Part shown: piece after piece, positions 3,584 to 10,692 of the stretch
How the letters are laid out: every line of letters begins with the position of its first letter
Position numbering within the stretch: position 1 is the first letter of the stretch
Assembly (NCBI GenBank): GCA_025774615.1
Contig: JALGVQ010000093.1
Coordinates: 1-10,692, forward strand
Direction of reading: 5' to 3'
Length of the DNA stretch: 10,692 bases
Origin: a bacterium
Lineage (GTDB): Bacteria; Blakebacterota; Blakebacteria; Blakebacterales; Blakebacteraceae
Program-made: the position numbers and the translations under genes
The notes under the pieces: generated by a model
Told to the model about the DNA's origin: nothing
Database searches by the model: none
The model's input: only the letters and a program-made list of their open reading frames with translations

Positions 3584-5368
3584 TCATCGCATGACCCTGC
3601 CGCTGGTAGAACCGCCTGCCAGACGCTCTACCTCGGCAATATCCACCAGGTTGAAGTCGCCGTAGATCGAATGTTTCAGGCAGGAGGCCGCCACTGCTAA
3701 GTTGAGGGCCTCCGGGATCTCCATTCCGGTGAGATGCCCATGGATGAGTCCGGCCGCGAAGGCGTCCCCTGCCCCGACCCGGTCGATGATCGGCACATGG
3801 TAGACCGGGCTGAGATGGAAATCCTCTCCCTCAAGCAGGCAGGCCGACCAGTTGTTCTCCGAGGCCGAGATGCTCTCCCGGAGGGTGATGGCCACCTGTT
3901 CGAGGCCGAACCTCTCCTTCAGTTCCCTGGCCGCCATTTCATATCCCTTCACATCCAGATCGCCGCTCTCGACATCGGTTTCGGAGATCTCGATCCCGAA
4001 CACCTTCGCCGGGTCCTCCTCATTGGAGATCAGGAGATCGACGAACGGCATCAATCCGGTCATCACCCGTTCCGCATCTTCGGTACTCCACAGCCGGCTC
4101 CGGTAGTTGAGATCGGCGCTCACTTTGATCCCACGCTCACGGGCCACTTCCAGGCCGGCCAGGAGAGTCGCGGTCACGTCTGCACCAAGAGCTGGTGTGA
4201 TACCGGTCCAGTGGAACCACTCCACGCCTTCCAGCGCTACGTCCCAATCGATGTCCTGGGGCTCCACTTTCGAAAAGGAGGATCCGGCTCGATCGTAGAC
4301 CACCTTCGAAGGCCGTGGCCCGGAGCCGTGTTCCAGGAAGTATATTCCGAGCCGGGTCCCTTTCCGGACAATCCTGCCGGTTCCCACTCCCTGTTCACGG
4401 AGTGCGCGAAGGGCATTCTCACCCGAGTCGTTCTCCGGCAGCAGGCTCACGAATTCAGCCGAATGGCCGAACCGTGCCAGTGAAACGGCTACGTTCGCCG
4501 CCGCGCCGCCGAAGTGCACAGCGAACTCCCCCGCATTCCTGAGTCTGACACCCGACGGTGGAGAGAGGCGCATCATCAGCTCCCCGAAGGTCACGACCGC
4601 GCTTCCGGCTCCTTCTCCCTTCCCCGCTGTTTTTTCCTTCTCCCGCTCGGATCCCGGAGTCGAAAGAACCTGGACAGGCACATCCGACCGGGAACCGCCG
4701 GTCACGATCTCCTTCCATTTCCTGATCTCTGCCGCTGTCCCTTCCCTGTCGTCAAGGTTCTTCATCAGAGCCGAGGCGCAGAAGATGCCTTCGGGATCGA
4801 CTTCGAGAGCGCGCGGCAGGGTATCGATCGAGATGCCGCCGGTGTAGACGATTGCAAGATCCCGCCATGGTCCCCGCCATGCCTGTGGGAGATGGAGGGC
4901 GGACGACCCTTCTGTGAAGGCCGGGAAGAGTTTGTAGATCCACTGGTACGGATACCGTTCCTTCAGTTCATCGAGGGAACAACCGTACCCATCAGCCTTG
5001 TGGACCAGTTGTTTCCCAGCGTCGGAGAGTCCTCCCGGCACACACATGAGGTCGTGCTCGACACACACATCCACCACGGCAGGGATGAAGTCGGCTGATA
5101 CGATCCCTGAGGCGCCAGATGAAATGGCCGCTTCTGCCTGACCGGTCGTCATGACGGTCCCGGCCAGGATCAGCGCTTCCTGGTACTTCTCCCTGACGAG
5201 GGCGATCCCGGCGGCAGCATGCTCAGACCGGAAGGCGACTTCCAGGGTGATCCCTTCATCCCGGCACAGATCATATGCCGTCAGGCAGTCATCAGGAACA
5301 GAGGGGGTGAGGAGCGCGACAAGCTGGCCCTCTTTCATCTGTCTGAAGAGTCGTTCGGTCGCTTTCAT
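3584..5368 (-). CDS. Bifunctional KDPG aldolase - 2-keto-3-deoxygluconate kinase (fusion protein)
   Basis: One uninterrupted 594-residue frame carries two enzymes. Residues 1 to about 225 are a KDPG/KHG aldolase: Glu43 in LEVAFRSE, GTV at 70-72, the Schiff-base Lys146 in IYKLFPAF, and the phosphate-binding TGGIS at 176-180. Residues 236-256 are a charged Glu/Lys/Gly linker. Residues 257-594 are a PfkB-family kinase of the KDG kinase type: FGELMMRLSP at the start, HFGGAAANVA at 285-294, and DRVGAGDAFAAG at 529-540 with catalytic base Asp535. The kinase would phosphorylate 2-keto-3-deoxygluconate (or an epimer), and the aldolase would split the product to pyruvate and glyceraldehyde 3-phosphate, the lower Entner-Doudoroff route. 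The order is aldolase first, the reverse of the reaction order. A GAAGGGA Shine-Dalgarno site (5377-5383) overlaps the SDR stop and lies eight bases before the ATG. Substrate stereochemistry is not determinable from sequence. Confidence 0.9.
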   Translation of the reverse strand: MKATERLFRQMKEGQLVALLTPSVPDDCLTAYDLCRDEGITLEVAFRSEHAAAGIALVREKYQEALILAGTVMTTGQAEAAISSGASGIVSADFIPAVVDVCVEHDLMCVPGGLSDAGKQLVHKADGYGCSLDELKERYPYQWIYKLFPAFTEGSSALHLPQAWRGPWRDLAIVYTGGISIDTLPRALEVDPEGIFCASALMKNLDDREGTAAEIRKWKEIVTGGSRSDVPVQVLSTPGSEREKEKTAGKGEGAGSAVVTFGELMMRLSPPSGVRLRNAGEFAVHFGGAAANVAVSLARFGHSAEFVSLLPENDSGENALRALREQGVGTGRIVRKGTRLGIYFLEHGSGPRPSKVVYDRAGSSFSKVEPQDIDWDVALEGVEWFHWTGITPALGADVTATLLAGLEVARERGIKVSADLNYRSRLWSTEDAERVMTGLMPFVDLLISNEEDPAKVFGIEISETDVESGDLDVKGYEMAARELKERFGLEQVAITLRESISASENNWSACLLEGEDFHLSPVYHVPIIDRVGAGDAFAAGLIHGHLTGMEIPEALNLAVAASCLKHSIYGDFNLVDIAEVERLAGGSTSGRVMR

Positions 5369-5381
5369 GAGAGAGGTCCCT

Positions 5382-6170
5382 TCAAAGGCTCCTGATGTTC
5401 ATCCCGCCGCTCGCGTCAATGACTGTCCCGGTCGAGTATCCGAGATCGGCACAAGCGAGCGAGGTGACCACACGCGCGATGTCGTCCGGCTGTCCCCAAC
5501 GGCCGAGGGGTACCGCTCCCCCGTCGATGAGCCGATCGTATTTCTCCTTCACCAGGGCCGTCATATCAGTCTCGATGATCCCCGGTCGCACCTCGTATAC
5601 ACGGATACCATGTTCGGCGAGCCGGTCTGCAAACACAGTGGAGACCATGCTCAAACCCGCCTTCGACACGCAGTACTCCACACGGTTCACCGAGGAGACC
5701 TCGGCCGAGATCGAAGTGATGAAGATGATGGAGGAGAATCCATCCCCAGCCTCAGCTGTCTCGATCATCCTGCCGGCGATGGCCTGGGTAAGGAAGAAGG
5801 TCCCGCGCAGATTGACTGACAGTACCTCATCGAAGCTCTCCGGAGTCGTCTCGAGCACATCCCTCCGTTCGAGGGGAGCGATTCCGGCGTTATTCACCAG
5901 GGTGTCGATCCTCCCGAAGGCTTCCTCGATATCGGTGACGATCTTCCCGTGCCCCTCCAGCAGACTGATATCGGCTTCGATCGGCAGGAAGGCGGCACCC
6001 AGGTCGGCAAGCTCAACGGCCAGTCCATCGAGCCCTGCCCTTTCCGGGGTCGTCTTGAGCGCGAGGTCGATACCCGCGATATCGAATCCTGCTCCGGCGA
6101 GGTCGAGGGCAATGGCCCGACCGATCCCCCGACTGGCGCCGGTCACGACGGCTACCGGACGGTTATCCAT
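5382..6170 (-). CDS. Short-chain dehydrogenase/reductase (3-oxoacyl-ACP reductase-like), probably NAD-dependent
   Basis: This is a classical SDR of 262 residues (271 if translation begins at 6197). The cofactor loop TGASRGIG is at residues 10-17, NNAG at 93-96, the structural Asn in LSVNLRGTF at 120, and the catalytic set Ser153, Tyr166 and Lys170 lies in ITSISAEV...VEYCVSK. Asp35 at the end of the second strand (AGIDLAL) is the usual sign of NAD(H) rather than NADP(H) preference. The sequence around YEVRPGIIETDM and the C-terminal GRWGQPDDIA resembles proteins often annotated 3-ketoacyl-ACP reductase, many of which occur in sugar-catabolic operons and not in fatty acid synthesis. It begins 23 bases after the FAD oxidoreductase and ends 13 bases before the aldolase-kinase gene, so a role as a sugar, sugar-acid or keto-sugar dehydrogenase is likely. 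The substrate is unproven. Confidence 0.88.
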   Translation of the reverse strand: MDNRPVAVVTGASRGIGRAIALDLAGAGFDIAGIDLALKTTPERAGLDGLAVELADLGAAFLPIEADISLLEGHGKIVTDIEEAFGRIDTLVNNAGIAPLERRDVLETTPESFDEVLSVNLRGTFFLTQAIAGRMIETAEAGDGFSSIIFITSISAEVSSVNRVEYCVSKAGLSMVSTVFADRLAEHGIRVYEVRPGIIETDMTALVKEKYDRLIDGGAVPLGRWGQPDDIARVVTSLACADLGYSTGTVIDASGGMNIRSL

Positions 6171-6174
6171 GAGT

Positions 6175-6181
6175 CCCCTCT
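6175..6181 (-). promoter_or_regulatory. Shine-Dalgarno site favouring the internal SDR start
   Basis: The minus strand reads AGAGGGG four bases before the ATG at 6170-6168. The competing in-frame ATG at 6197 overlaps the upstream stop as ATGA but has no well-placed Shine-Dalgarno sequence, so translation from there would depend on coupling. The shorter start puts the glycine-rich loop at the usual distance from the N-terminus. Confidence 0.55.
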
Positions 6182-6193
6182 TTTCCACACTCT

Positions 6194-8203
6194 TCATCTG
6201 ATGACATCATCATTCCTGAACGATTTCCACACCTGCTCGAACCAGAGGTCCTCCCGTGGTATCGGTCTGACATCGATCCACTCTTTCACCACCCCACCAT
6301 CAGGATCACACGACACTTCCAGGATATGGGTGTCCACCCACGAGCCCTCTTCCTCGAGAGTGAACCGCCACTCATCCTCCAGCCCTTCACACGGGATCTC
6401 GCCGGCGGGATCGAGCACCAGGAACGACCCCCGGCTTCTGCCTCCCCGGGAGAGATATTCGGCGATCGCCTCCAGATAGAGCGCATGGGTGAAACCGAGA
6501 TCGAGGTTTCTGAAGGCCTCAGGCAACTCGGACTCTGATCCGACGCGAAGCTTCTCCTGCATGGCATGAAAAAGATGCCAGGCCTCATCCACTGCCTCAC
6601 CGATCAGTTCGGGATCCCTCACATGAGACCCGACTCTGGACATCCTCTGCCGGATATCCCTGCCGACAGCCTCTACGCTGAGGGCGTCCTCCCCGGCAGA
6701 CCCGGTGAAACAGGCCACCGTCGCGAGGAGTTCGCTGAGTCGAGGACCCGCGGAGGCGAGGAAAGCATCCTCGGTCCGGGGCTCTCCGGTATAGCGGCGG
6801 CTGATATACTGCGCCGACCGGAGCGCACCTACCTGACCGGCGTTCAGCGCCGATCCGCCCGGCCTCCTGACCCCGTGACTGCCATTGATCTCGCCCACCG
6901 GGAAGAGGTGCCGCACGTTCGACTCCCACCAGAGATTGCCGGCCAGTCCGCCATTGTTATGCTGGGCGCAGACAGCGATCTCGAGCGGTTCGGCGGCTAT
7001 ATCGATCCCGTTGTCGAGGTAGAGCTGGATCGCCGGCTGGTTCATCTTCCTGAGACGATCGATCGGTGTCTCCTGAACAGCCCCTGAACGCTCAAGGTAC
7101 TCCTTTGCCTCAGGCGCGAGTGCCTGAAGATCGAACTCCCCGAAACCGGGGGAGCCGGAAGGGTTCCGGGTAAAATCGAGAAACACCCGACGCCCCTGTG
7201 CAACCCGTTCCCGGTACACCAGCAGATCGATCAGGGAAGAGCCGTGGTCCCTGATCTTCCGGGGATCGAACGGCCACTGATATCCCTTCAGAAACACGGC
7301 GGTGGCCAGTGAACCCATGTCGGGAAAGAAGTCGTTGAGGAACTCCCGCTCATCCCCACCCTCATTGTCGGTTGAGAAATAGCGGGGGATCACCTGCTGG
7401 TACGATCCCGAGAGATTCCAGCGGAAGGAGATGGATGCCAGCCCGAACTGGGACTCGGTCAGATTCTGCGCGATCGCTCCCGTCTCCAGGGCGATCCCGG
7501 TGCTGCCGATCTGTCCCTCGGGGTAGACACTCGTTTCGTACATCCCGCCGGGTCCACCGGTCCCGATGATGACATTGATGGCGTTGAAGAGAACGAAGGG
7601 AGGTTCTCCCGCTTCGAGGGCCCTCCTGTCAAGCGCGAGCGCTCCCGTCACCCGCCGGTCATCCCCGTCAGGTTCGGTGAAGAGCGCGATGACCTGCTGG
7701 GAATCGAACACTTCGAGACCCCGCTTCTTAACCGCCGCGGCGAGGGCGGAGAACATCATCCGGGAAGTTCTCGGACCTGCCGAGGTCGCCCTTCCCCGCT
7801 GGTCGTGGTCGGTCCGGTAGCCGATGAAGGCTCCATGAGGGTCGTGGGGAAAGGGTACTCCCAGGTTCACCAGGTTGAGGAAGGCGCGTACCGAGTTCTG
7901 TGCCTCGCAGAGCGCGATATCGCCATGCATCGAGCCACCGTTGAAGAGATCTTCGGCCATCAGAAGAGGCGAATCGGCTACCTCACCCGCCAGGGAAAGT
8001 TTGTAGTAGGTCTGCTTGTCGGAGCCGGCGTTGTTCGAAGTGCCTCCTCCCCACTCCTCGGTGACGATGGCGACATCCTCCTGGCCGAGATCATGAAGAT
8101 TGAGGGCCGCGCTCAGGGAAGCTGCGCCGCTGCCGATCACCAGGGTATTCACCGAGATGAGTCTGAACCTGGTTCCTTCATAGGTAATAGCGGTCTCCCT
8201 CAC
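6194..8203 (-). CDS. FAD-binding oxidoreductase, fumarate reductase/succinate dehydrogenase flavoprotein-like
   Basis: This 669-residue protein starts with GTG inside the stop of the preceding gene (GTGA overlap), with an AGGAG sequence just upstream. Residues 19-40 form the dinucleotide-binding fold, with GSGAAS at 24-29. WGGGTSNNAGSDKQ (51-64) and IIGTGGPGGMYETS (212-225) match the FAD-contacting segments of the FrdA/SdhA/L-aspartate oxidase family. HNNGG (415-419), FPVGEINGSHGVRRPGG (434-450) and SALNAGQVGA correspond to the family's HxxGG, GE...HG.R.GG and cofactor-closing segments. The C-terminal part has the helical stretch with YLSRGGRSRGSF (583-594), comparable to the SdhA helical domain. 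There is no Tat or Sec signal and no haem or covalent-FMN domain, so it is likely cytoplasmic and needs a separate redox partner. The adjacent Fe-S-type OYE homologue is a candidate. Family members catalyse C-C dehydrogenation or C=C reduction; the substrate here is unknown. The SDR start overlaps or follows its stop. Confidence 0.87.
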   Translation of the reverse strand: MRETAITYEGTRFRLISVNTLVIGSGAASLSAALNLHDLGQEDVAIVTEEWGGGTSNNAGSDKQTYYKLSLAGEVADSPLLMAEDLFNGGSMHGDIALCEAQNSVRAFLNLVNLGVPFPHDPHGAFIGYRTDHDQRGRATSAGPRTSRMMFSALAAAVKKRGLEVFDSQQVIALFTEPDGDDRRVTGALALDRRALEAGEPPFVLFNAINVIIGTGGPGGMYETSVYPEGQIGSTGIALETGAIAQNLTESQFGLASISFRWNLSGSYQQVIPRYFSTDNEGGDEREFLNDFFPDMGSLATAVFLKGYQWPFDPRKIRDHGSSLIDLLVYRERVAQGRRVFLDFTRNPSGSPGFGEFDLQALAPEAKEYLERSGAVQETPIDRLRKMNQPAIQLYLDNGIDIAAEPLEIAVCAQHNNGGLAGNLWWESNVRHLFPVGEINGSHGVRRPGGSALNAGQVGALRSAQYISRRYTGEPRTEDAFLASAGPRLSELLATVACFTGSAGEDALSVEAVGRDIRQRMSRVGSHVRDPELIGEAVDEAWHLFHAMQEKLRVGSESELPEAFRNLDLGFTHALYLEAIAEYLSRGGRSRGSFLVLDPAGEIPCEGLEDEWRFTLEEEGSWVDTHILEVSCDPDGGVVKEWIDVRPIPREDLWFEQVWKSFRNDDVIR

Positions 8204-9549
8204 CCTCTCTCCTTCCTGCGACTGGCATGCAGTTCACGGTATTCCTTACCATATATCTCCCGATCGCGCACGATACATCCGCCGGGACGACCGTTCCGGA
8301 TCAGCTCGGAGCAGCCGGAACAGGCGATACAGACCCTGGCGGGATCGAGTCTGCCATCCTCCATGAGGTCCCGCGGCGCTTCCGGATAAGCGAAGGCACC
8401 CCGCCCGACCCCAACGATCGAAACATCTCCGGCAGCGATGACGGCTGCCGCTACCTGAGGATAGAACTGGCGCAGCCACGAGTACCCGGTACCCACCACC
8501 GGCAGGTCCGGCACCTCCTTCTGGACTCCGGCGGTCATTCGGATGAGACGGTGCACACCGGTCAGCGGGTGCTCAGGTGGTTCCCGGTCCCCGGACACGG
8601 GACGGTTGTAGGGTCGGCCGGTCCAGGGATTGAACGACGGGACGCCCGAGGTCGCGTTCAACAGGACACAACCCCGATCGATGAGTTCCCCGGTCACCAG
8701 AAGCGGTTCGGTCAGATCAGAATCGATCGATCCATCCTTCGGGACACCGAAACCGTGCGGCCAGGCGATCCCGTCGAAGAGGCTCAAGCGCACAGCCACC
8801 GGCAGGCCGGGGCATTCCGCGCCGATCCGATCCACCAGCTCCATCAGAAAGCGTGACCGGGCCGTCAGATCCTCCCCCCCGAACAGACTCTCCTCCCTGG
8901 CGCCGGCCCCCAGGAGTTCATGGACCAGATAGCCATGACAGGCCTTGATATCCACGGCATCGAATCCGGCCATATGGGCCAGTCGGGCGGCCTCCACGAA
9001 GTGATCCTGGAGTCCGCGCAGATAGTCGTCATCGAGGAGAGTGACCCCCTCGAACCGGTGATCGATATCGGGATTGGCAGCCGCAACCTGGGGCCGGGGT
9101 ACTCCCTCCGGTCGGCTGAATCGGCCGGAATGGGTGAGCTGGAGTACCAGGAACGGTCGGTGGGACGCTCCGAAAGCTCCATCTGCTGCGGCCCGGGTCT
9201 CTTCGACCAGCCGGCTGAACCGGTCGAACGTTCCCTGATGGAGATAGAGCTGTCGTGGATTTGAACGGCCCTCCGGAACGACACTCGCGGCCTCGAACCA
9301 GATGAGACCACTGCCACCCACAGCGAACCGTTGATAGCGCCGGAAGGCGAGGTCGCCGGGCGCGCCGTCAGGTTCTGAGTCGAATCCCTCCATCGGGTGG
9401 ATCGCCAGCCGGTTGGGGATCACCTGTTCCCCGATCGGGAGTGGCTCGAGCAGAGGTTCGATCGATTCCCGGTACGGAAGGTAGAGCCCCAGGCGACCGG
9501 CCTCAGCGAGCAACTCCTCTCCGCTTCTGAAATGGCTCATTCCCATCAT
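8200..9549 (-). CDS. NADH:flavin oxidoreductase, Old Yellow Enzyme family, with C-terminal Fe-S-type cysteine motif
   Basis: The protein (449 residues from the chosen start) is an FMN-binding TIM barrel of the OYE / 2,4-dienoyl-CoA reductase / trimethylamine dehydrogenase group, which typically reduces activated C=C bonds or dehydrogenates amines. Visible landmarks are IPNRLAIHPMEG near residues 44-55, LQLTHSGRFSRPEG near 136-149, the active-site stretch DIKACHGYLVHELL near 200-213, and VGTGYS followed by VSIVGVGRGAFAYPE near 376-390, the FMN phosphate region. Cys407, Cys410, Cys413 and Cys425 form CxxCxxCx11C, close to the 4Fe-4S motif of trimethylamine dehydrogenase and dienoyl-CoA reductase. 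The protein ends about 24 residues later, so the FAD/NAD(P) domains of those long enzymes are missing. The position of the OYE substrate-binding His holds Lys202, followed by His205 and Tyr207. It lies between a sugar isomerase-like gene and an FAD-binding oxidoreductase and overlaps the latter by four bases. Substrate unknown. Confidence 0.88.
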   Translation of the reverse strand: MMGMSHFRSGEELLAEAGRLGLYLPYRESIEPLLEPLPIGEQVIPNRLAIHPMEGFDSEPDGAPGDLAFRRYQRFAVGGSGLIWFEAASVVPEGRSNPRQLYLHQGTFDRFSRLVEETRAAADGAFGASHRPFLVLQLTHSGRFSRPEGVPRPQVAAANPDIDHRFEGVTLLDDDYLRGLQDHFVEAARLAHMAGFDAVDIKACHGYLVHELLGAGAREESLFGGEDLTARSRFLMELVDRIGAECPGLPVAVRLSLFDGIAWPHGFGVPKDGSIDSDLTEPLLVTGELIDRGCVLLNATSGVPSFNPWTGRPYNRPVSGDREPPEHPLTGVHRLIRMTAGVQKEVPDLPVVGTGYSWLRQFYPQVAAAVIAAGDVSIVGVGRGAFAYPEAPRDLMEDGRLDPARVCIACSGCSELIRNGRPGGCIVRDREIYGKEYRELHASRRKERG

Positions 9550-9553
9550 CTCG

Positions 9554-10558
9554 TCACCCCTCCAACCCGTTTGAACGATGGAGGATATCCCGGAGTGAGG
9601 TGATGTCCCGGATGAGCCTTTCCTCACACACATCCGGCCAGGACTCTCTAAGCGTCTTCACGCACGCTCCCTCCCCGATCCTCCGATCGGTCACATCGGC
9701 CATCTCCATCAGAAGCCCGTATTCCTCCCCGGTGAGATCGGGAAATTCCGCAAGGAAGCGGCTCTCTCCCACCGGCAGCAGGAATTCCCCGCCGTGATCC
9801 TCGATCGAGAGATTGATCGGGTGCTCGAGCGATGCGAGCATTACCGCGATGGTGGTCAGATCGATGATCCCGTCCCCTACCGCTGTCGGCCAGGTGATCA
9901 GGCCATCATCGGTCAGCTGCAGGGCTCCGTCCTTGATATGGGTGGAGGTCACCCACGGCAGTATCCGGCCGGTACCGCTGACCGGATCCTCCAGCATGGT
10001 GAGAAGGTTCATGGTATCGAGGCAGATACCGAGCCACTCTCCCGGCTCCGCCTCGCACATATCGAAGAGACGGTACAGTTCGAAGGTGGTGAACTCGAAA
10101 TGGAGTTCGATACTCAGGATCACCCCGTGATCCCGGAGCATCGACCGCTGCACCTTCAGCGCCTCTGATGTCTCCCGGAGGAGGGTCTCGGTCGCGGGAT
10201 TTGCGGGATCCCAGCGCATCAGCCCTCCCGAGCAGGAACGGATCACCCTGGTGTCGAGGATTGCGGCTTCTTCGGCCGCTCTCCGGTTCACATCGAAGAT
10301 ATCTTCCTCTACCCAGCTCTCCATATCCCGCGGGATGTGTCGGGCACCGCCCCACTCGATATACATCCCTTCTCCCTGCGCATACTCTCTCATCTCTTCG
10401 AGATATTCGCGGTCGATCTTCGGTTGGAATTCAGGTTCGATCCCGGAAAACTGCACACCATCAGCTCCGTGCGCTTGAGCCCATTCGAGCAGGGCCAGCG
10501 GCTCAAGGCCGAGCGGGATCGGTCCGTAACTGTCTATACCGACCTGGAGTCGACCCAT
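9554..10558 (-). CDS. Sugar phosphate isomerase/epimerase-like TIM-barrel protein
   Basis: This 334-residue protein resembles the xylose-isomerase-like TIM-barrel superfamily (AP endonuclease 2 family), whose members isomerise or epimerise sugars, keto-sugars and related polyols using a divalent metal. The N-terminus (MGRLQVGIDSYG) is the typical first barrel strand. Likely metal ligands fall at the ends of successive strands: Glu151 in SIELHFEF, Asp181 in GICLDTMN, His207 in STHIKDG and Glu253 in LSIEDHGGE. A GDG motif near residues 228-230 is common in the family. No signal peptide is seen, so it should be cytoplasmic. Its stop lies four bases before the next gene, so the two are probably translated together. 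The substrate cannot be read from sequence; related families include 3-keto-sugar hydratases/epimerases, inosose-handling enzymes and hydroxypyruvate isomerase. The family call is firm and the specific function is open. Confidence 0.85.
   Translation of the reverse strand: MGRLQVGIDSYGPIPLGLEPLALLEWAQAHGADGVQFSGIEPEFQPKIDREYLEEMREYAQGEGMYIEWGGARHIPRDMESWVEEDIFDVNRRAAEEAAILDTRVIRSCSGGLMRWDPANPATETLLRETSEALKVQRSMLRDHGVILSIELHFEFTTFELYRLFDMCEAEPGEWLGICLDTMNLLTMLEDPVSGTGRILPWVTSTHIKDGALQLTDDGLITWPTAVGDGIIDLTTIAVMLASLEHPINLSIEDHGGEFLLPVGESRFLAEFPDLTGEEYGLLMEMADVTDRRIGEGACVKTLRESWPDVCEERLIRDITSLRDILHRSNGLEG
9557..9563 (-). promoter_or_regulatory. Shine-Dalgarno site for the OYE-family gene
   Basis: The minus strand reads GGAGGGG immediately upstream of, and abutting, the TGA of the preceding gene, seven bases before the ATG at 9549-9547. 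It supports this start over the in-frame ATG at 9633, which would lie deep inside the upstream gene. A second ATG directly follows (9546) and cannot be excluded. Confidence 0.65.
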
Positions 10559-10625: not shown

Positions 10626-10692
10626 TCAGCGCTTCTCCCCTTTGAAGAGCCAGACGAAGCCGTGATAGCTCTGCTCCGGGTACTTCTCCCAG
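10626..10692 (-). CDS. C-terminal end of an unidentified upstream gene (partial)
   Basis: Reading leftward from the right edge, the frame whose stop is TGA at 10628-10626 gives 21 residues ending in YHGFVWLFKGEKR. This has the aromatic and charged mix of a real protein end, while the other two frames give low-complexity Arg/Ser-rich or less protein-like peptides. The rest of the gene lies outside the window, so no family can be assigned. It is followed by a 67-base gap before the next start and is on the same strand, so it may be the preceding member of the same operon. This is a frame choice made on composition only. Confidence 0.5.
   Translation of the reverse strand, partial: WEKYPEQSYHGFVWLFKGEKR

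Follow-up and report, generated by a model that had tools for sequence, protein, structure and literature searches.

Two described pathways combine a short-chain dehydrogenase/reductase (SDR) with two kinds of flavoenzyme. The equol cluster of Slackia and Lactococcus encodes the NADH:flavin oxidoreductase DZNR, the SDR DHDR and the fumarate-reductase-like THDR (PMC4381290), and its net result is the reduction of a C=C bond and of a ketone together with the removal of a hydroxyl. Bile acid 7-dehydroxylation (bai) uses the SDR BaiA, the iron-sulphur (Fe-S) proteins BaiCD and BaiH of the Old Yellow Enzyme (OYE) type, and the flavin adenine dinucleotide (FAD) reductases BaiP and BaiJ (PMC9645264, PMC10382948). 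Here we compare these systems with a locus on bacterial contig JALGVQ010000093.1, in which an OYE, an FAD protein with the fold of FrdA and an SDR adjoin genes for 2-keto-3-deoxygluconate (KDG) metabolism. The original prediction for this locus stated that no described glycan pathway needs both an enoate-reductase-type and a fumarate-reductase-type flavoenzyme; as far as we found this holds for glycans, but not in general, as the equol and bai systems illustrate.

The window analysed is the complete contig of 10,692 bases, from a 3.3-Mb draft genome (G000; 82% complete) that has a sister genome, G001 (85% complete). The seven genes are all encoded on the - strand and transcribed in the order TIM barrel of the AP_endonuc_2 family, OYE, FAD protein, SDR, fusion of a 2-keto-3-deoxy-6-phosphogluconate (KDPG) aldolase with a KDG kinase, glycosidase-like protein and glycoside hydrolase family 38 (GH38) protein (Pfam and NCBIfam; Table 1). 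We put it at not quite an even chance that the module dispenses with a classical dehydratase in converting a sugar-derived acid to KDG or a closely related 2-keto-3-deoxy acid, which the fusion then phosphorylates and splits. The broader proposition is more doubtful, namely that these genes represent a widespread undescribed flavin-dependent KDG route (oxidation, elimination, reduction) replacing the metal-dependent dehydratases of the Entner-Doudoroff and hexuronate branches.

Recurrence of the module and supply of the kinase-aldolase

A profile built from five of the FAD proteins was used to search species-representative genomes (genome_contigs), with 80 loci kept; at least 564 loci encode relatives, from Aminicenantes to Firmicutes and including one Bathyarchaeota metagenome-assembled genome (MAG). 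No relative was found in the viral contigs searched. Neighbourhoods were counted at 83 loci, many of them cut by contig ends. An SDR lies within 4.5 kb of the FAD gene at 56 of these and an OYE at 46 (both at 33, neither at 14), so that 69 have one or both. Two orders recur, OYE-FAD-SDR in Aminicenantes, Bacteroidales and KSB1, and OYE-SDR-FAD in Firmicutes, and pairwise distances of the FAD, SDR and OYE proteins are correlated (r 0.61–0.76, 0 of 2000 permutations), with a contribution from species history. Where the OYE is not adjacent, an orthologue is present elsewhere in about half of the genomes. The gene patterns suggest that a conserved catabolic module is formed by the FAD protein and SDR, usually joined by the Fe-S OYE and frequently by a TIM-barrel isomerase. 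Loci of the FAD protein family include those of gut Faecalibacterium and of Halanaerobium with pectin genes, and the bacteria that keep two or three of the redox enzymes next to genes for sugar acids are numerous, unrelated and anaerobic, with one archaeal genome besides. The four successive redox and isomerase genes running into a KDPG aldolase-KDG kinase, as originally predicted, are thus borne out by family models, gene junctions and cross-phylum order. The prediction took conserved order as the mark of a real unit and a flanking classical uronate pathway as a mark against it: the order recurs across phyla, and such a pathway is present in Halanaerobium and not in the window's genome.

The neighbourhood is one of sugar-acid catabolism. 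KDPG aldolase is encoded at 14 of the 83 loci and KDG kinase at 14, with both at 12, within 1.23 Mb of DNA; 34 whole genomes totalling ~119 Mb have 43 KDPG aldolase matches. The density of KDPG aldolase near the module is therefore ~11 versus 0.36 per Mb, a ~30-fold enrichment that is rough because the two counts used different search methods. The Halanaerobium OYE and FAD genes lie inside a pectin/hexuronate cluster with UxaE, UxaC, UxaA, tagaturonate reductase and GH28, together with a CUT1-like transporter, a MocA protein and an AP_endonuc_2 protein. Other loci have TRAP, NMT1-type or TctA-like transporters (the last read from sequence). URO-D-type proteins are encoded in eight loci (L075, L078, L079, L089, L098, L118, L122 and L127) and also at L101 8760–9905, and could conceivably serve in methyl transfer on methylated sugar acids. 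At two further loci (L082 5636–12019 and L135 10004–17319) the OYE is replaced and the FAD gene stands beside a CoA-transferase and, from a reading of the sequence only, an enoyl-CoA hydratase-like gene, with an acyl-CoA dehydrogenase additionally in L082; these are possibly an acyl-CoA version of the same chemistry.

The fusion is the sole KDPG aldolase in four genomes: G000, G001 and two Aminicenantes MAGs (G100 and G102). No UxuA (PF03786), UxaA-type GD_AH_C (PF20629), ILVD_EDD (PF00920) or KduI protein was found in any of the four, so that the 82–85% complete G000 and G001 show neither classical hexuronate dehydratase. Beyond enolase-level matches, the enolase superfamily is represented only by MenC (o-succinylbenzoate synthase; 330–350 bits, cut-off 200.65), and no Entner-Doudoroff dehydratase, whether ILVD/EDD or an enolase-superfamily sugar-acid dehydratase, was found in these four genomes. 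UxuA, GD_AH_C, ILVD_EDD and KduI were also not found in G099, an Aminicenantes chromosome in a single contig of 4.35 Mb. ILVD/EDD proteins number zero in G000, G001, G098, G099, G100, G102 and G103, an absence that includes IlvD, the dehydratase for branched-chain amino acids. The kinase-aldolase needs a feed, for which the products of the genes immediately upstream are the obvious candidates. It would be too strong to say for all genomes that the dehydratase is absent and that the module replaces it, since most others have one, ILVD-type or UxuA/UxaA.

Properties of the encoded proteins

The FAD protein is related to fumarate reductases and aspartate oxidases, and no curated model tested names its family. 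The best named models are NadB, SdhA and TfrA, every one far under cut-off (e.g. 73.8 bits against 452.75 for L-aspartate oxidase NadB, TIGR00551, and 59.2 bits against 567.3 for the fumarate reductase/succinate dehydrogenase flavoprotein, TIGR01812). An AlphaFold2 model (predicted local distance difference test score, pLDDT, 90.8) shows the FrdA fold in full, helical C-terminal domain included, and matches Escherichia coli FrdA with Z 44.3–44.4 and a root-mean-square deviation (rmsd) of 3.8 over 545–547 aligned residues. In profile alignments with NadB, H415 and R447 are each kept in all 82 FAD-protein sequences, and the position of NadB H244 is glycine (G254) in all 82, such that the two carboxylate sites are not both present. 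One carboxylate-binding half-site (H415 and R447) is thus, as judged by alignment, kept and the other lost. On these residues and the scores, identity with fumarate reductase or with aspartate oxidase was rejected, and the window has no gene for an FrdB-type iron-sulphur subunit. From what is established for the FrdA/NadB family, the substrate would be bound through one carboxylate in the manner of FrdA and differ in the rest of the molecule, which would suit a sugar acid. We found no description of the FAD protein or of this gene set in the open-licence papers searched, where both the family and the pathway appear to be undescribed.

The OYE has an FMN barrel and four cysteines for a 4Fe-4S cluster, as in Fe-S OYEs of the dienoyl-CoA reductase, trimethylamine dehydrogenase and BaiCD type. 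All four cysteines (C407, C410, C413 and C425) are invariant in a 38-sequence alignment and at least 95% conserved among 42 sequences. The protein stops 24 residues past the last of them, and because it ends so soon after the cluster it does not have the C-terminal FAD/NAD(P)-binding half of dienoyl-CoA reductase. Its AlphaFold2 model (pLDDT 95) matches 2-naphthoyl-CoA reductase best (Z 43.7, rmsd 2.2, 363 aligned), and also trimethylamine dehydrogenase and dienoyl-CoA reductase (Z 40–44 across these). BaiCD was rejected as an identity (56.8 bits against a cut-off of 825 for NF041087), as was bilirubin reductase, with a score far under its cut-off. Relatives of ~620–930 residues are encoded at L099 290–2923, L108 6583–9204, L063 6796–9450, L187 6386–9172 and L188 2997–4859, and that of L099, the one of these scanned, is fused to a GltD-like Fer4_20/Pyr_redox_2 diaphorase. 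G000 has a second OYE gene with an in-frame TGA; selenocysteine was considered for this codon and rejected, as the TGA is upstream of the likely start.

The SDR passes PRK12745 (NF009386; 326.1 bits, cut-off 250) and fails KduD TIGR01832 (145.3 bits, cut-off 338.85), and residues 7–594 of the fusion pass NF041633 (KDPG aldolase/sugar kinase) at 847.1 bits, against a cut-off of 700. No relative of the TIM-barrel protein was found in the PDB by sequence; its orthologues are in seven of the 83 loci, and AP_endonuc_2 proteins in 16. The original prediction of alpha-mannosidase-type genes stands for the GH38 gene at 1458–1, but no model makes the 3506–1455 product an alpha-mannosidase. The latter matches nothing in Pfam, even at E 0.05, and nothing in the PDB by sequence; orthologues are present in L072, L073 and L075, and it is absent between the fusion and GH38 in G001. 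That genome splits the same content over two contigs, OYE-FAD-SDR and SDR-fusion-GH38, both breaking within the SDR.

The genes are closely packed, with a 4-nt overlap of the OYE stop and the FAD start and gaps of a few to 13 nt at the TIM/OYE and SDR/fusion junctions. The SDR may start at an ATG at 6197, overlapping the FAD gene by 4 nt, or at an ATG at 6170, 23 nt on. A further - strand frame ends (WEKYPEQSYHGFVWLFKGEKR-stop) at 10626–10692, 67 nt upstream of the TIM gene, and given this frame end the operon may extend past the contig end. An Rfam scan of the window gave no match, and promoter and terminator scans gave no excess over shuffles.

Table 1. Features of the window. Gene starts at 10558, 9549, 8203, 6170, 5368 and 3506 were inferred via relatives; ORF, open reading frame; KHG, 2-keto-4-hydroxyglutarate.
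Feature	Position	Strand	Remarks
TIM-barrel protein, AP_endonuc_2 (sugar isomerase/epimerase-like)	9554..10558	-	59.7 bits; ATG 10558 after AGGAGGA-like site; ORF to 10621
OYE-type FMN enzyme with 4Fe-4S motif	8200..9549	-	Oxidored_FMN 81 bits; ATG 9549; ORF to 9633
OYE Cys cluster C407-C410-C413-C425 (CIACSGCSELIRNGRPGGC)	8275..8331	-	CxxCxxCx11C, C-terminal
FrdA-fold FAD protein	6194..8203	-	FAD_binding_2 68 bits; GTG start overlapping OYE stop
FAD protein R447 codon	6863..6865	-	aligned with NadB R386 (carboxylate-binding Arg)
FAD protein H415 codon	6959..6961	-	aligned with NadB H351
FAD protein G254 codon	7442..7444	-	position of NadB H244 (second carboxylate site)
SDR oxidoreductase, PRK12745 type	5382..6170	-	alternative start 6197 overlaps FAD stop
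KDPG/KHG aldolase fused to PfkB KDG-kinase-like domain	3584..5368	-	NF041633
Glycosidase-like protein, 683 aa	1455..3506	-	weak oligosaccharide amylase/trehalase scores
GH38 alpha-mannosidase-type protein, cut by contig end	1..1458	-	192.9 bits

A possible route to KDG and its alternatives

Redox-based removal of a hydroxyl is proposed because the same enzyme classes operate in the equol and bai systems, and we infer a substrate, a product, an order of steps and an electron path as follows. By analogy, the SDR would make a ketone that enables beta-elimination of water and would later reduce a ketone, and the OYE would reduce the enone arising from the loss of water. The FAD protein would grip the carboxylate through R447 and H415 and work on the neighbouring C2-C3 bond, precisely where the enol form of KDG is an enoate. 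Its electrons could pass via the 4Fe-4S cluster of the OYE, and the overall scheme can be redox-neutral. The fused kinase-aldolase would phosphorylate and then cleave the 2-keto-3-deoxy product. A non-canonical route to a 2-keto-3-deoxy acid was among the original suggestions, and this putative route gains from the conserved gene order and from the finding of no searched dehydratase family in the window's genome.

Several observations weigh against this route. The proton-shuttling catalytic arginine of FrdA and NadB has no strictly conserved counterpart (R315 is arginine in 62 of the 82 sequences), and therefore the chemistry of the FAD protein may differ from that of fumarate reductases. An OYE orthologue is missing from about ten genomes with the FAD protein, including G047 and G048, which are 97–98% complete; this rejects the OYE as an obligate electron partner, and the FAD protein and SDR are therefore the core, with the OYE a frequent third member. 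The majority of loci show no KDPG gene in the stretch of DNA available, and in Halanaerobium the classical hexuronate pathway beside the module is complete, so that the module must do something additional there. An ILVD/EDD-family dehydratase-like protein is encoded at the FAD locus L147 (1266–2936), with a related member in L121, and thus some FAD genes do have a dehydratase-like neighbour. Two enolase-superfamily proteins of G099 are left unassigned by every model. The dehydratase-lacking genomes are mostly MAGs, and each family could hide in the missing 15–18% of G000 and G001, although four genomes agree.

Much of this can be read in other ways. The module may process another polyol or acid (a cyclitol, keto-sugar or O-methylated sugar acid) that joins at tagaturonate or KDG, the KDPG genes being a shared downstream end and not the direct next step. 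Recurrent MocA (19 of the 83 loci) and AP_endonuc_2 genes, the URO-D-type proteins, the adjoining UxaE in Halanaerobium and a weak likeness of the Firmicutes TIM barrels to the 5-keto-L-gluconate epimerase IolO all speak for this, but we consider it unlikely as the fusion comes directly after the SDR in the window's genome and its close relatives, with no other KDG source found. Less probable still is the handling of unsaturated uronates from polysaccharide lyases, in which the SDR would be a reductase of the 4-deoxy-L-erythro-5-hexoseulose uronate (DEHU) or KduD type yielding KDG, and the flavoenzymes would reduce the C4=C5 enoate or its oligosaccharides. DEHU reductases yielding KDG are known (PMC8563752), the SDR is near the KduD and gluconate 5-dehydrogenase models, though under their cut-offs, and pectin genes adjoin the module in Halanaerobium. 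However, KduI was not found in the window's genome or in six of the seven others searched, GH88/105 was not found in G000, G047, G098, G100, G102 or G108, and no polysaccharide lyase was identified among the annotated neighbours.

The second original suggestion, that an unsaturated aglycone freed by the glycosidases is reduced by the OYE and FAD protein and so serves as electron sink, in the manner of the equol pathway, is a poor prospect. The enzyme classes do equal those of equol synthesis, and the CoA-transferase and enoyl-CoA hydratase-like genes of L082 and L135, with the acyl-CoA dehydrogenase of L082, would suit it. But the glycosidases are limited to a few Aminicenantes/KSB1-type loci (four each, the window included), whereas the redox core is everywhere, the OYE is far under the BaiCD and bilirubin reductase cut-offs, and the neighbours are those of sugar-acid catabolism (KDPG aldolase, KDG kinase, UxaC/UxaE/UxaA, and sugar and organic-acid transporters), leaving the suggestion with no specific support. 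Each enzyme class is common alone, and one could suppose that unrelated redox enzymes came together in a single operon by chance; this can hardly be credited and is refuted by the recurrence of order and pairing in Firmicutes, Bacteroidota, Aminicenantes, KSB1 and the Bathyarchaeota MAG. A redox route to a 2-keto-3-deoxy acid is the better of the two original readings.

If KDG is indeed made without a dehydratase, carbohydrate-acid metabolism is mis-predicted in many uncultured phyla, and a new flavin-dependent reaction of sugar acids comes within reach. For the four genomes without any searched alternative, three or four recombinant proteins would be enough to put the question to a direct test.

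Comparison with known systems

At the level of single proteins, the FAD protein is like the FrdA/SdhA/NadB family in its full fold and one carboxylate half-site, and differs from it in the change of the second-site histidine to glycine, in having no FrdB-type partner and in scoring under all named cut-offs. The OYE shares the FMN barrel and 4Fe-4S motif with 2,4-dienoyl-CoA reductase, trimethylamine dehydrogenase and 2-naphthoyl-CoA reductase, but is unlike all three in missing the C-terminal FAD/NAD domain, with GltD-like fusions in a few relatives. Among pathways, the classical hexuronate (Ashwell) pathway (UxaC, UxaB/UxuB, UxaA/UxuA, KdgK and Eda) has the KDG kinase and KDPG aldolase end in common with the module, and the window's genome has flavoenzymes in place of UxuA/UxaA. 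The equol cluster has the same three enzyme classes clustered, a comparison by class only. Its substrate is an isoflavone, whereas the module has a downstream KDPG aldolase-KDG kinase, an OYE without the FAD/NAD domain and a sugar-acid neighbourhood. The bai system differs in needing a dedicated dehydratase, BaiE, and CoA esters, and shares with the module an SDR, two kinds of flavoenzyme and the logic of oxidation, elimination and reduction.

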